64,000 nt of DNA. Origin: Rhizobium phaseoli (GTDB lineage: Bacteria > Pseudomonadota > Alphaproteobacteria > Rhizobiales > Rhizobiaceae). Shown here one piece after another: positions 56,061-61,287 of this stretch. The translations under genes and the position numbers were made by a program. The notes beneath the pieces were generated by a model. That model was given only the letters and a program-made list of their open reading frames with translations. It did no database searches and was not told the DNA's origin. The DNA lies in the NCBI RefSeq assembly GCF_003985125.1, contig NZ_ML133574.1, forward strand, positions 62,001-126,000. Reading direction: 5' to 3'. How positions within the stretch are numbered: position 1 is the first letter of the stretch; each line of letters starts with the position of its first letter.

Positions 56061-56744
56061 ATGAAACGCAACGTCGTTCTCAAGCTTACCGGCGTCGAGC
56101 GCCATTACGGGCAGGGCGATACGCTGCTCTCGATCCTGAAAGGCGCGGATTTCTCGCTGTCGAAAGGCGAGATCGTGGCCCTTGTCGCCCCCTCCGGCAC
56201 CGGCAAATCGACGCTGCTGCATGTCGCCGGCCTGCTTGAGCATCCCGATGGCGGGGAAGTCACGATCAACGGCCATGCCTGTGACGGCCTTCCCGACGGC
56301 AAGCGGACGGCGATCCGTCGCCGCGAAATCGGCTTCGTCTACCAGTTCCACCACCTGCTGCCGGAATTTTCCGCCCTTGAGAATATCATGATGCCGCAGC
56401 TGATCGCCGGGCTGTCCTGGAAGGAGGCCAGCGAGCGAGCCGGCCAGCTTCTCGATTACATGCGCATCGGCCATCGCGGCTCGCATCGTCCGGCCGAACT
56501 ATCCGGCGGCGAGCAGCAGCGCGTTGCGATCGCCCGCGCCGTCGCCAATGCGCCGACCCTGCTTCTGGCCGACGAGCCGACCGGCAATCTCGATCCAGAC
56601 ACCGCAAGCTACGTCTTTGACGCGCTGGAGGCGTTGGTGCGCCAGTCCGGCCTCGCCGCCCTTATCGCCACCCACAACCACGAACTCGCCGGCCGCATGG
56701 ATCGGCGCGTAACGATTTCGGACGGCAAGGTCGTCGATTTCTGA
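56061..56744 (+). CDS. lolD: Lipoprotein-releasing ABC transporter ATPase
   Basis: A 227-residue ATPase. Walker [22 protein letters not shown]-loop [16 protein letters not shown], signature [16 protein letters not shown], Walker [16 protein letters not shown], and the switch His in [10 protein letters not shown]. It starts 14 bases after lolC and forms the transport complex with it. Confidence 0.95.
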
Positions 56745-56838: not shown

Positions 56839-57303
56839 TCAGGGGATGATCAGGCCACCGCGATAGTCGAGCGCGTAAGCCTTTCGCCCGTCGACCAGGA
56901 TGCATTCGTGACCGCTGAACCGTTCGCAGCCGCCTTCGCTGCGATCGATATAACGACCGAACGGATGGTCGAATTCCATTCCGCCGAGAAACCGATCCTG
57001 CCGATACATGGCAGAAAGCGCCGCCTTGATCACTGTGCCCGCTGCGCTGGCATCAATGAGATCGGGCGCAATGACCCAGCCGAAATAATTCATCGCCCAG
57101 ATCGGCTCGTCGGCAAACCACACCACTTCCTGTCCGGCAAAGTCGGTGCCGCCGAAATAGCTGTCGAGATAGCGCCAGTCGCCGCGCTCATAGCCGATAT
57201 CGTGAGACCCCAGCCGGCAGGGCGGACGCGGCACGCCGCCGCCGACATAACTGGCAGCTTTGGCTTCGACGACGAATTCGTTCAGCATCGCAGTCTCGGG
57301 CAT
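56839..57303 (-). CDS. DUF5680 protein with an upstream LexA box
   Basis: A 154-residue protein. It starts MPETAMLNEFVVEAKAASYV after a strong GGAGGAGGA site. The DUF5680 hallmarks are GSHDIGYERGDWRYLDSYFG, TDFAGQEVVWFADEPIWAMN and the end YALDYRGGLIIP. Function of the family is unknown; no signal or membrane segment. A perfect LexA site (57350-57364) lies 47 bases before the start and overlaps the -35 region, so the gene is probably DNA-damage inducible. It is transcribed divergently from the microprotein gene at 57587, which has its own LexA site. Confidence 0.85.
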   Translation of the reverse strand: MPETAMLNEFVVEAKAASYVGGGVPRPPCRLGSHDIGYERGDWRYLDSYFGGTDFAGQEVVWFADEPIWAMNYFGWVIAPDLIDASAAGTVIKAALSAMYRQDRFLGGMEFDHPFGRYIDRSEGGCERFSGHECILVDGRKAYALDYRGGLIIP

Positions 57304-57349
57304 AGGATCCTCCTCCTGACTCGTCAGCAGGGATATAGCAGAACGATCG

Positions 57350-57364
57350 GAACATAAACAGAAC
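57350..57364 (-). promoter_or_regulatory. LexA (SOS) box of the DUF5680 gene
   Basis: GAACATAAACAGAAC, a perfect GAAC-N7-GAAC. On the reverse strand it reads GTTC-N7-GTTC, with a CTATAT -10 about 11 bases downstream of it. Confidence 0.8.
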
Positions 57365-57529
57365 AAATGCGTTGAGCCTTTGTCATGGCGGAACGTCTCC
57401 ACGTTCTTTGCGGCATGACGGGTTTTCGAGGCCGCGGCTCGGCACCCCCAAGCCCGTCGCCGAAGCCTTCACCGAATCGTTGCATCGCAGGGTTGTTTTT
57501 CAAACGCAAGCAGAGAGAAAAGATTCCTG

Positions 57530-57558
57530 TTGACATCGGAACATAGATGGAACAAATT
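57530..57558 (+). promoter_or_regulatory. Promoter with embedded LexA box, microprotein gene
   Basis: TTGACA at 57530-57535, then 17 bases, then CAAATT as a weak -10. The LexA box GAACATAGATGGAAC (57539-57553, perfect GAAC-N7-GAAC) fills the spacer, the usual place for LexA repression. Confidence 0.8.
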
Positions 57559-57586
57559 GAAAACATAACGAGTAAAGGAGAGCCAG

Positions 57587-57673
57587 ATGACTGACATGAT
57601 CCGTGATATCGCAGCATTCACCTCCATCGCAATGTTCGTTGCCAGCTTCTCACTCATCGTCATCGCCATCTAA
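57587..57673 (+). CDS. 28-residue SOS-linked membrane microprotein
   Basis: ATG to TAA gives 28 residues: a short charged N-terminus MTDMIRD, then about 21 hydrophobic residues (IAAFTSIAMFVASFSLIVIA and a final Ile), enough for a single membrane helix with no tail. AAAGGAG lies eight bases before the ATG, so translation is well supported. A perfect LexA box sits in the promoter, about 34 bases upstream. The layout (LexA box, tiny one-helix peptide) is that of SOS-induced membrane peptides such as TisB of E. coli, but I see no sequence relation. Function unknown. Confidence 0.7.
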   Translation: MTDMIRDIAAFTSIAMFVASFSLIVIAI

Positions 57674-57789
57674 AGTTTTCAGGGGACTGCATGGTCATCA
57701 TGTGGTTCGGACGCGGGACTTCTTCTGGACATCATTGCCCTCCATGCCGACAATGCGTCCGATTCATTCGGTGATTGGGAAGGCATGTC

Positions 57790-60700
57790 ATGGCGGATAC
57801 GGTAAAGGGTTCGACGGGTGAGGCGATCGGCGGCACGCCGGGCTTCATTCACCTGAGGGTCCATTCCGCCTATTCGCTTCTCGAAGGCGCGCTGCCGCTG
57901 AAGAAGATTCTCTATAAGGCGGCCGGCGACAATCAGCCGGCCATCGCCATCACCGACACCAACAATCTGTTCGTCGCCCTCGAATTCTCGCAGAAGGCAA
58001 TGGACGACGGGCTGCAGCCGATCATTGGCTGCCAGGTCTCGATCGACATGGAAGATGGGCTGGAGACCGAAAAACGCGGCGGCCAGCAGGCGTTGGTCAA
58101 GCTGCCGTCGATCGTCCTTCTCGCCGCAACGGAGGCCGGTTACGAAAGGCTGGTCGATCTCGTCAGCCGCGCCTATCTCGGCGGCGACAGCAACCAGGCC
58201 ATTCATATCAGGGCCTCCTGGCTGGAGGAGGCTGGCACGGAAGGGCTGATCGCCTTGACCGGCGCCCTGACAGGGCCGGTCGACGCGGCGATCAGGGAGG
58301 GCCATACCGCCCAAGCCGAAGCGCGGCTGCTGATGCTGAAGCGTCTCTTCGGCGACCGGCTCTATGTCGAACTGCAGCGTCATGGCACCTACGACAAGCG
58401 GCACGAGCAGAAGATCGTCGGGCTCGCTTATGCCCACGACCTGCCGCTGGTCGCCACCAACGAGGCTTTCTTTCCGACACGCGACGATTACGACGCCCAT
58501 GATGCGCTGATGGCGGTTGCTCATAATGCCATCGTCTCCGACGACAGCCGCTTTCGTCTGACGCCGGATCATTATCTGAAGAGCCGCGCCGAGATGGCCA
58601 AGCTCTTCGCCGACCTGCCGGAAGCGCTGGAGAACACGATCGAGATCGCCAGGCGCTGCTCCTTCGTGCTGAAGACGCGGAAACCGATCCTGCCGCGCTT
58701 CACGGGTGCGACCGACGACGCCGAGGAGGCCGAACGCGCCGAGGCGGGTGAATTGCGCCGCCAGGCGGTCGAAGGGCTGGACATGCGGCTTTCGACCCTC
58801 GGCATGTCGCCAGGTTACGAGGAAAAGGATTATCGCGAGCGGCTCGAATTCGAGCTCAGCGTGATCGAACGCATGCGCTTTCCCGGCTACTTCCTGATCG
58901 TTGCCGACTTCATCAAATGGGCCAAGCAGCATGACATTCCGGTTGGTCCCGGCCGTGGTTCGGGCGCCGGTTCGCTGGTCGCCTATGCGCTGACGATCAC
59001 CGACGTCGATCCCTTGCGGTTTTCACTGCTGTTCGAGCGCTTCCTCAATCCGGAACGCGTCTCGATGCCGGACTTCGACATCGACTTCTGCCAGGACCGC
59101 CGCGAAGAGGTGATCCGTTACGTCCAGGCCAAATACGGCCGCGAACAGGTGGCCCAGATCATCACCTTCGGTTCGCTGCAGGCGCGCGCAGCACTCCGCG
59201 ACGTCGGCCGCGTACTGGAAATGCCCTACGGCCAGGTCGACAAGATCTGCAAACTTGTGCCGAACAATCCGGCCAATCCGACGCCGCTCTCCAAGGCGAT
59301 CGAGGAGGAGCCGAAGCTGCAGGAGGAAGCGGCCAAGGAGCCGGTGGTCGCGCGCCTGCTCGATATCGCCCAGAAGATCGAGGGGCTTTACCGCCATGCC
59401 TCGACCCATGCCGCCGGTATCGTCATCGGTGACCGTCCGCTGTCCAAGCTGGTGCCGATGTATCGCGATCCGCGCTCGGACATGCCGGTCACTCAGTTCA
59501 ACATGAAATGGGTGGAGCAGGCGGGCCTCGTCAAATTCGACTTCCTCGGCCTGAAGACGCTGACCGTGCTGAAGGTCGCCGTCGATTTCGTCGCCAAGCG
59601 CGGCATCAGTGTCGACCTGGCGGCCATTCCCCTGGACGACAAGAAGACCTACGAGATGCTGTCACGCGGTGAGACGGTCGGCGTGTTCCAGGTGGAAAGT
59701 GCCGGCATGCGCAAGGCGCTGATCGGCATGAAGCCGGACTGCATCGAGGACATCATCGCGCTGGTGGCGCTCTATCGTCCGGGCCCGATGGAGAACATCC
59801 CGACCTACAATGCCCGCAAGCACGGTGACGAAGAGCTGGAATCGATCCATCCGATGATCGACCACCTGCTCAAGGAAACCCAAGGCGTCATCGTCTATCA
59901 GGAACAGGTGATGCAGATCGCCCAGGTCCTGTCCGGATATTCGCTCGGAGAAGCCGATCTTTTGCGCCGCGCCATGGGTAAGAAGATTAAGGCGGAGATG
60001 GACCAGCAGCGCGAACGCTTCGTCGATGGCGCCGTCAAGAACGGCGTATCGAAGCCGCAAGCCGACAATATCTTCGAACTGCTGGCGAAGTTCGCCAATT
60101 ACGGCTTCAACAAGTCGCATGCCGCCGCCTATGCCATCGTCTCCTACCAGACGGCCTATATGAAGGCGCATTATCCGGTGGAATTCCTCGCCGCCTCGAT
60201 GACGCTCGACATGTCCAACACGGAAAAGGTCAACGACTTCCGCCAGGACGCCAAGCGCCTCGGCATCGAGGTGATCGCCCCGTCGGTGCAGACCTCCTTC
60301 CGCCAGTTCGAGACCGGCGACAACCGCATCTATTATGCGCTGGCCGCTCTCAAGGGCGTCGGCGAATCCGCCGTCGACCATATCGTCGAGGTGCGCGGCG
60401 ATACGCCGTTCGCCGGTATCGAGGATTTCTGCCTGCGCATCGATCCGCGCCAGGTGAACCGCCGCGTGCTGGAAAGCCTGATCTATGCCGGCGCCTTCGA
60501 TTGCTTCGGCACCGACCGCGCCCAGCTTTCCGCCGGGCTCGACCGCATCCTCGGCTATGCCCAGCGGGCGCAGGAAAACAAGCTGAGCGGCCAGTCGGAT
60601 ATTTTCGGCAGCACCCTGACCTCGGGGCCTGAAAAGATTGCCCTGCCGCCGTTTTCGCCCTGGCTTGCCTCGGAGCGGCTGCTCAAGGAATTTCAGGTGC

Positions 60701-61287
60701 TGGGCTTCTATCTCACGGCTCACCCGCTCGATTCCTACAGCAACATCTTGCAGAAGATGCGGGTGCAGACCTTTGCCGAGTTTTCCGCAGCGATCAAACA
60801 GGGGGCGTCCAATGCGCGTCTTGCCGGCACTGTCATCTCCAAGCAGGAGCGCAAGACCCGCACCGGCAACAAGATGGGCATCATCGTCTTTTCGGATTCG
60901 TCCGGCCAGTTCGAGGCCGTGCTGTTTTCGGAAATGCTCAACCAATACCGCGACATGCTGGAGTCCGGAAAATCCTTCCTGCTGACCGCGACCGGCGAGG
61001 AGCGGCCCGAGGGCATCGGTCTGCGCATCCAGACGATCCAGTCGCTGGAGGAAAAGTCGCTGCAGATGCAGAAGGCGCTGCGCGTCTATGTCCGCGATTC
61101 CGGGCCGCTGAAAATGGTCGCCGGCCACCTGAACGCCAAGGGCGACGGCCTGGTTTCCTTCATCGTCATCAAGGAAGAAGGCAAGCGCGAGGTCGAAGTG
61201 GCGCTGCCGGAGAAATACCGCATCACCCCGGAGATCGCCGCCGCTCTACGCGCTGCCCCCGGCGTCGTCGACGTCGAGCTGGTTTAA
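57790..61287 (+). CDS. dnaE: DNA polymerase III alpha subunit
   Basis: A 1165-residue replicative polymerase (DnaE1). The N-terminal PHP domain opens FIHLRVHSAYSLLEGALPLK. The polymerase palm has GPGRGSGAGSLVAYALTITD and the catalytic PDFDIDFCQDRREEVIRYVQ. The finger part has HAAGIVIGDRPLSKLVPMYR. The OB domain follows near residue 1010 (ARLAGTVISKQERKTRTGNK). I start at MADTVKGSTG, with GGGAAGG upstream; the frame is open five codons further. Full length and intact. Confidence 0.97.
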   Translation: MADTVKGSTGEAIGGTPGFIHLRVHSAYSLLEGALPLKKILYKAAGDNQPAIAITDTNNLFVALEFSQKAMDDGLQPIIGCQVSIDMEDGLETEKRGGQQALVKLPSIVLLAATEAGYERLVDLVSRAYLGGDSNQAIHIRASWLEEAGTEGLIALTGALTGPVDAAIREGHTAQAEARLLMLKRLFGDRLYVELQRHGTYDKRHEQKIVGLAYAHDLPLVATNEAFFPTRDDYDAHDALMAVAHNAIVSDDSRFRLTPDHYLKSRAEMAKLFADLPEALENTIEIARRCSFVLKTRKPILPRFTGATDDAEEAERAEAGELRRQAVEGLDMRLSTLGMSPGYEEKDYRERLEFELSVIERMRFPGYFLIVADFIKWAKQHDIPVGPGRGSGAGSLVAYALTITDVDPLRFSLLFERFLNPERVSMPDFDIDFCQDRREEVIRYVQAKYGREQVAQIITFGSLQARAALRDVGRVLEMPYGQVDKICKLVPNNPANPTPLSKAIEEEPKLQEEAAKEPVVARLLDIAQKIEGLYRHASTHAAGIVIGDRPLSKLVPMYRDPRSDMPVTQFNMKWVEQAGLVKFDFLGLKTLTVLKVAVDFVAKRGISVDLAAIPLDDKKTYEMLSRGETVGVFQVESAGMRKALIGMKPDCIEDIIALVALYRPGPMENIPTYNARKHGDEELESIHPMIDHLLKETQGVIVYQEQVMQIAQVLSGYSLGEADLLRRAMGKKIKAEMDQQRERFVDGAVKNGVSKPQADNIFELLAKFANYGFNKSHAAAYAIVSYQTAYMKAHYPVEFLAASMTLDMSNTEKVNDFRQDAKRLGIEVIAPSVQTSFRQFETGDNRIYYALAALKGVGESAVDHIVEVRGDTPFAGIEDFCLRIDPRQVNRRVLESLIYAGAFDCFGTDRAQLSAGLDRILGYAQRAQENKLSGQSDIFGSTLTSGPEKIALPPFSPWLASERLLKEFQVLGFYLTAHPLDSYSNILQKMRVQTFAEFSAAIKQGASNARLAGTVISKQERKTRTGNKMGIIVFSDSSGQFEAVLFSEMLNQYRDMLESGKSFLLTATGEERPEGIGLRIQTIQSLEEKSLQMQKALRVYVRDSGPLKMVAGHLNAKGDGLVSFIVIKEEGKREVEVALPEKYRITPEIAAALRAAPGVVDVELV

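Follow-up and report, generated by a model that had tools for sequence, protein, structure and literature searches.

Upstream of the replicative polymerase gene dnaE1 in Rhizobium phaseoli, a reading frame of only 28 codons lies under a LexA box, which raises the question of whether so short a frame is a gene at all and, if it is, what its product would do in the SOS response. The frame is located in a window of 64,000 nucleotides, which is the whole stretch of DNA that was analyzed. The preliminary description of this locus, made from the sequence alone, had regarded the product as an SOS-controlled membrane peptide with a role possibly similar to that of TisB. In this article, it is proposed with good confidence, on the basis of sequence comparison, that the ORF is a divergent rhizobial counterpart of Caulobacter sidA, which would encode an SOS-induced inner-membrane inhibitor delaying septation via FtsW, FtsI, and FtsN. 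The elements of the locus are as follows.

56061..56744, + strand: an ORF taken to be lolD, the upstream landmark of the conserved locus.
56839..57303, − strand: DUF5680 gene (family match), which separates lolD from the microprotein gene and runs opposite to both.
57350..57364, − strand: second LexA box (pattern scan), upstream of the DUF5680 gene and reading GTTC-N7-GTTC in that gene's direction.
57530..57535, + strand: TTGACA, candidate −35 element, read in the sequence, with TTGAC conserved in relatives.
57539..57553, + strand: LexA box GAAC-N7-GAAC, GAACATAGATGGAAC, read in the sequence and conserved.
57561..57564, + strand: possible third half-site AAAC, in the same 11-nt register as the box, indicated by conservation counts.
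57574..57580, + strand: ribosome-binding site AAAGGAG, read in the sequence.
57587..57673, + strand: sidA-like ORF of 28 aa with one hydrophobic helix and its ATG at 57587, indicated by coding selection and similarity to the SidA profile.
57674..57789, + strand: spacer of 116 nt between the microprotein ORF and dnaE1, scanned for promoters and terminators.
57790..61287, + strand: dnaE1, encoding the replicative DNA polymerase III alpha subunit (Pfam PHP, DNA_pol3_alpha, and finger).

The product of the ORF is MTDMIRDIAAFTSIAMFVASFSLIVIAI, to which no family was assigned in searches of Pfam, NCBIfam, and PHROGs, and 33 nt separate the end of the LexA box from its ATG. The box, the AAAGGAG site, and the complete hydrophobic frame upstream of dnaE, as originally read, are all borne out by the sequence, and the box and the frame also by conservation.

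The microprotein ORF is confirmed as a real gene under strong coding selection. The DNA segment is matched in 145 of the 148 genomes of the genus, the genome of the window itself included; the exceptions are G063, G064, and G145, of which G063 has the protein at 70% identity. At all 147 genus loci read, a set collected by similarity in which some species occur twice and 16 loci come from records titled only 'Rhizobiales bacterium', the 87-nt frame is intact. The 79 distinct ORFs in the genus encode only 22 proteins, and their pairwise differences at codon positions 1, 2, and 3 amount to 6546, 2324, and 22721, respectively, so that third positions vary approximately 10 times as often as second positions. 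A bias toward synonymous sites, which had been suggested as a check together with conservation of the box, spacing, and helix, is likewise evident, with 77% of single-change codons being silent as against 22% expected. Beyond the genus, a 61-member family profile applied at E values up to 0.01 finds a match in 244 of 297 family genomes and 93 of 109 genera, a count of which part was inspected and which includes a few phage-type copies.

The LexA box alone is no evidence, since its pattern occurs near the chance level in the window (3 matches against 1.83 expected) and not far above it in the whole genome (168 matches against 133 for the reversed pattern); it is accepted as real because of its conservation across relatives. 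A perfect box is present at 145 of the 147 genus loci, and in other genera of the family at 75 of 85 loci, with one mismatch at 9 and no box at a single locus, L168, which is a phage-type copy. The idea of a LexA-boxed, single-helix membrane microprotein upstream of dnaE, as predicted from the sequence, is upheld. To check that the pattern serves as a LexA box in this genome, 11 box-like loci were viewed and five candidate genes were read, three of which carry a box upstream: an ImuA-like gene (55 bits, under the curated cut-off of 150), an SRAP gene, and an O6-methylguanine methyltransferase gene. No box was found within 130 nt of the other two candidate genes, which are presumably RuvC-like and ComM-like.

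The promoter-like TTGACA of the preliminary description stands only in part: the box has TTGAC ahead of it at 144 of the 147 loci in the genus and at 57 of 85 in other genera, but no sigma-70 −10 element was found 16-18 nt after TTGACA. The sequence AAACATAA that follows the box (within 57554-57569) appears strongly conserved, yet contains no recognizable −10 element. The position of a third half-site, 11 nt past the second, is occupied by AAAC at 143 of the 145 genus loci with a perfect box, and in other genera by AAAC at 35 and GAAC at 15 loci (50 of 73). Such a half-site could mean stronger or cooperative repression, or it could be just a conserved part of the promoter.

The locus is an old one. 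Among the loci whose records are named (64 Rhizobium and 16 'Rhizobiales bacterium'), dnaE1 lies downstream in all 80, as it does in all 30 longer family loci, five of them of the genus. Where the flank was limited to about 300 nt, dnaE1 is visible in 37 of 60 loci, and lolD is seen upstream in 8 of the other 23. A search of the order yielded 61 genomes with a match at E values up to 0.1, of which the best 30 loci were inspected (L287 and L290-L294 being chance hits); in other families of the order, a peptide of 29-36 aa lies ahead of dnaE1 in 20 of 20 inspected loci, 15 of which have perfect boxes and 5 one-mismatch boxes. Six loci of the genus g81 (L264-L269) keep the box and the peptide with no dnaE1 match within 1.5 kb, so that the two genes are either separable or farther apart there, a finding that counts against the SidA reading.

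The same place is held by sidA. The SidA model used was NCBIfam NF033228, with a curated cut-off of 35 bits. Seven control genomes match it at E values up to 1, of which the one above the cut-off is taken to be Caulobacter vibrioides and the other six are taken as noise. In the order containing G743, which is taken to be that of Caulobacter because of its SidA matches, 25 of 200 genomes score above the cut-off, and a representative sequence reaches 72.3 bits. Thirty SidA-type loci were fetched (25 above and 5 below the cut-off); dnaE1 is directly downstream in all 30, mostly abutting the ORF and, when its start is extrapolated, never more than about 220 nt away. Of the same 30 loci, 23 have lolD upstream and 21 have a perfect box within 110 nt. 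The published gene tags agree with this arrangement: dnaE1 is CC1926 (PMC1839093) and sidA is CCNA_02004 (PMC10769358), and recN carries both CC1983 and CCNA_02062, which by counting of tags puts sidA within one or two tags of dnaE1 in Caulobacter.

The resemblance extends to the peptides themselves, since the profile of the Rhizobiaceae family (alignment A2, from which L168, a boxless locus in the same place as the phage-type copy L494, was excluded) is similar to that of SidA (A3). In a single hhalign comparison, the two profiles align with a probability of 85 and an E value of 6e-6 over residues 1-19, in 19 ungapped columns. This score was never reached in 300 trials in which the SidA columns were shuffled separately in the N-terminal part and the helix, nor by any of 20 helix rotations. 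The residues common to both families follow the pattern R6-[DE]7-x2-[AS]10-[FL]11-x-S13-x3-F17-V18, and the conservation profiles of the two are correlated at r=0.68, which none of 5000 permutations equaled. The window gene has in common with SidA a length within 28-31 aa, one hydrophobic helix, a LexA box, a position just upstream of dnaE1 and downstream of lolD, and this set of residues.

Several observations speak against the SidA reading or limit it. NF033228 matches neither the genome of the window (E up to 1) nor the window protein (E up to 10), and it hits only 3 of the 61 family members weakly, with a best E value of 0.026; the window protein is accordingly a variant, not a curated SidA member. 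W19 and A25, which are invariant in 18 of 18 SidA sequences, are not conserved in the rhizobial family, and the alignment does not extend past residue 19. Eleven SidA-type sequences were scored singly against the rhizobial profile, each alongside about 1000 shuffles; for three of them 10, 11, and 36 shuffles did as well, and for one 6 did. That three are not clearly above shuffles counts against the kinship. A conserved stripe along one face of the helix falls short of significance in the rhizobial family (p 0.11) and only just attains it in SidA (p 0.035), and because a binding surface would be expected to show one, its weakness also counts against the SidA reading. The layouts differ in two further respects: the window ORF ends 116 nt from dnaE1, while the majority of SidA ORFs run up to or into the start estimated for dnaE1, and the DUF5680 gene intervenes between the microprotein gene and lolD in the window.

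The arrangement was also followed into the rest of the class. None of 230 class genomes scored above the cut-off of NF033228. In a sample mostly outside the order, 213 genomes were matched and 89 dnaE1 loci examined, 60 of them hand-picked from the listed matches with larger genomes favored; 88 loci could be placed, the remaining one being too short. A perfect box occurs within 450 nt upstream of dnaE1 at 20 of these 88 loci; the control patterns gave 1-2 loci (four other spacings, and the reversed pattern) or 5 (the reverse complement). A hydrophobic ORF of 24-45 aa follows the box at 16 of the 20, as compared with 2% in mononucleotide-shuffled sequence. A box and a hydrophobic microprotein thus precede dnaE1 at 16 of 88 class loci from other lineages, and the 68 loci without a perfect box indicate that the arrangement is not universal. 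Eleven syntenic peptides with no match to the SidA model were scored against the rhizobial profile, nine from outside the order and two, L270 and L302, belonging to the order but to other families. The scores of L270, L299, L302, and L386 were reached by 0 to 3 shuffles, and that of L306 is marginal (23 of 956). As relatives of SidA by sequence, L304, L390, L392, L429, L325, and L426 were rejected, their scores being no better than those of shuffles, so that for these six the link to SidA is one of box and place.

The function proposed for the rhizobial gene is modeled on that of SidA. SidA is described as an inner-membrane protein of 29 aa and as the primary inhibitor induced in the SOS response; its interaction with FtsW blocks division, and suppressor mutations map to ftsW and ftsI (PMC4211646). 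In Rhizobium, the conserved, promoter-overlapping box suggests that LexA would repress the microprotein gene, and by the known logic of the SOS response, DNA damage and RecA-driven cleavage of LexA would lift this repression. The 28-residue product would then insert into the inner membrane as a single helix and, by homology with SidA, bind the FtsW/FtsI/FtsN complex rather than FtsZ, delaying septation. One SOS transcript may also raise dnaE1, thereby tying the division brake to replication capacity. Cotranscription with dnaE1 is possible because no terminator-like site was found on the coding strand between the two genes, the only such site in the scan being on the other strand at 57595-57582. 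One promoter-like site, about the chance level (0.5 expected), lies in the spacer at 57726-57754, so dnaE1 may be read from the SOS promoter, from one of its own, or from both.

Other SOS-induced membrane inhibitors of late division, namely YneA, SosA, and ChiZ, follow the same principle in Gram-positive bacteria and mycobacteria. In a 2026 study, these proteins are modeled on FtsW, and SidA is modeled on TM7 of FtsW, without high confidence, on the side opposite to them (PMC13396833). Unlike SidA, ChiZ carries a LysM domain. YneA has one as well, and all three are larger than SidA-type peptides.

Homologous peptides are also found away from dnaE1. Several family genomes contain, at another site, a second peptide of the rhizobial family whose 85 nt of upstream sequence have no LexA box. 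A scan of viral contigs with two such second-copy peptides found 12 contigs (L495-L506), and in none of them does a perfect box occur within 150 nt upstream; one of these, L495, is equal in length to the genome contig from which the query was taken and probably identical with it. The neighbors on L495 match PHROGs for exonuclease VIII and RecT, and those on L500 match PHROGs for a repressor and an HNH nuclease. Among the genome copies, L492 lies beside an Erf gene, L494 beside a phage exonuclease gene, and L491 beside a regulator, while the neighbor of L483 has no PHROG match, and this copy is only perhaps phage-borne. The relatives without a LexA box that were counted as phage-borne are L485, L486, L491, L492, and L494. 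A profile of 11 phage-type peptides matches the rhizobial one along its full 28 columns (probability 98.6, E 1.4e-15, reached by 0 of 200 shuffles), and the seven viral-contig types alone give an E value of 1.2e-10; the similarity of the phage-type profile to SidA is weaker (probability 53). No match was obtained when an annotated phage collection was searched with two phage-type peptides, and no relative was found when viral contigs were scanned with the Rhizobium alignment A1. L488-L490 and L493 were left out of alignment A5; the first three are copies, in genome G431, of a peptide that looks related, is about 44 aa long, and has no LexA box.

The boxless homologues in phages near recombination genes suggest phage-borne division inhibitors. 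The kil gene of phage lambda sits in a comparable neighborhood of recombination genes, which makes such an inhibitor a natural hypothesis, although Kil itself is a larger protein that targets FtsZ and does not belong to the membrane peptides. A broader scenario, put forward tentatively and held with a little less than even confidence from sequence comparison, is that SidA represents an ancestral alphaproteobacterial checkpoint module, in which a LexA-controlled membrane microprotein would form one operon with dnaE1 and couple a division brake to polymerase supply, and that temperate phages of Rhizobiales took it, boxless, into their recombination regions as a host-division inhibitor, the membrane counterpart of lambda Kil.

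A different view of the locus is that translation of the ORF, not the peptide itself, tunes dnaE1 as part of its 5'-UTR. The short distance to dnaE1 and a coding strand with no terminator-like site between the two would suit such an upstream ORF, as would sORF25 of Sinorhizobium meliloti 2011, a translated sORF located by ribosome profiling in the dnaE1 5'-UTR, where sORFs are described as possible uORFs (PMC10117765). Nevertheless, the amino acid sequence is conserved with a residue pattern common to SidA, phages encode homologous peptides that are not next to dnaE1, and the six g81 loci have no dnaE1 match within 1.5 kb, so that this explanation is considered unlikely. With its place in the 5'-UTR being the same, sORF25 is probably the ortholog of the window gene, and its ribosome profiling offers indirect support for translation of the rhizobial microprotein; LexA is absent from the main text of that article, and its passages on sORF25 give no link to SidA (PMC10117765).

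The similarity to TisB that had been suggested at first implies an SOS toxin of the TisB or DinQ type, which would depolarize the membrane and promote persistence. TisB is a type I toxin, and its gene has a long structured leader and antisense RNA control. What recommends the comparison is the LexA box in combination with a single hydrophobic helix of fewer than 30 aa, both of which TisB of E. coli shares as an SOS-controlled peptide. The leader and antisense layout differ, however: the 33 nt between box and start leave no room for such a leader, and no antisense promoter-like site was found at 57300-57900, although the scan relied on a simple consensus and may have passed over promoters of other types. 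Furthermore, the gene is found in 244 of 297 family genomes and lies beside dnaE1 wherever the flank sufficed, except in genus g81. In view of the short distance from box to start, the place held in common with sidA, and the profile similarity to SidA, a division inhibitor is preferred and a TisB-like role is probably wrong, its chances being rated as distinctly poor.

Common descent with SidA need not entail a common mode of action, and the peptide might be a small accessory subunit or stabilizer of a complex of the envelope or of DNA repair. Small membrane proteins often serve as subunits of larger complexes, and the C-terminal half of the rhizobial peptide is unlike SidA, with no significant conserved binding stripe; the LexA box and the SidA locus are both retained, however, and this explanation is regarded as very improbable. 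A chance box above a spurious frame, for which the near-chance frequency of the box pattern in the window and its slight excess in the genome might speak, is already refuted by coding selection, box conservation, and distribution, and its likelihood is negligible.

The division inhibitor related to SidA remains the favored reading, and the statement that no description of the peptide was known has to be revised to the extent that SidA is a described relative and sORF25 probably an ortholog. It still holds that no description of a rhizobial or phage SidA appears among the literature matches listed. As far as the literature found shows, what is new here is how widely the locus is distributed, that it is tied to dnaE1, and that phages have copies of the peptide. 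If the reading is correct, it would give rhizobia and related bacteria a candidate for their SOS division inhibitor, suggest that one microprotein locus (box, peptide, and dnaE1) has been retained over much of a bacterial class, and make the coupling of division arrest to replication testable by one small deletion, while the phage copies would constitute a new class of phage division inhibitor directed against the membrane divisome.

The DUF5680 gene may also belong to the SOS response. This neighbor occurs on the opposite strand in 66 of the 80 named loci, 63 of which have a box within 140 nt upstream of it, and from this pattern it is probably an undescribed SOS gene.
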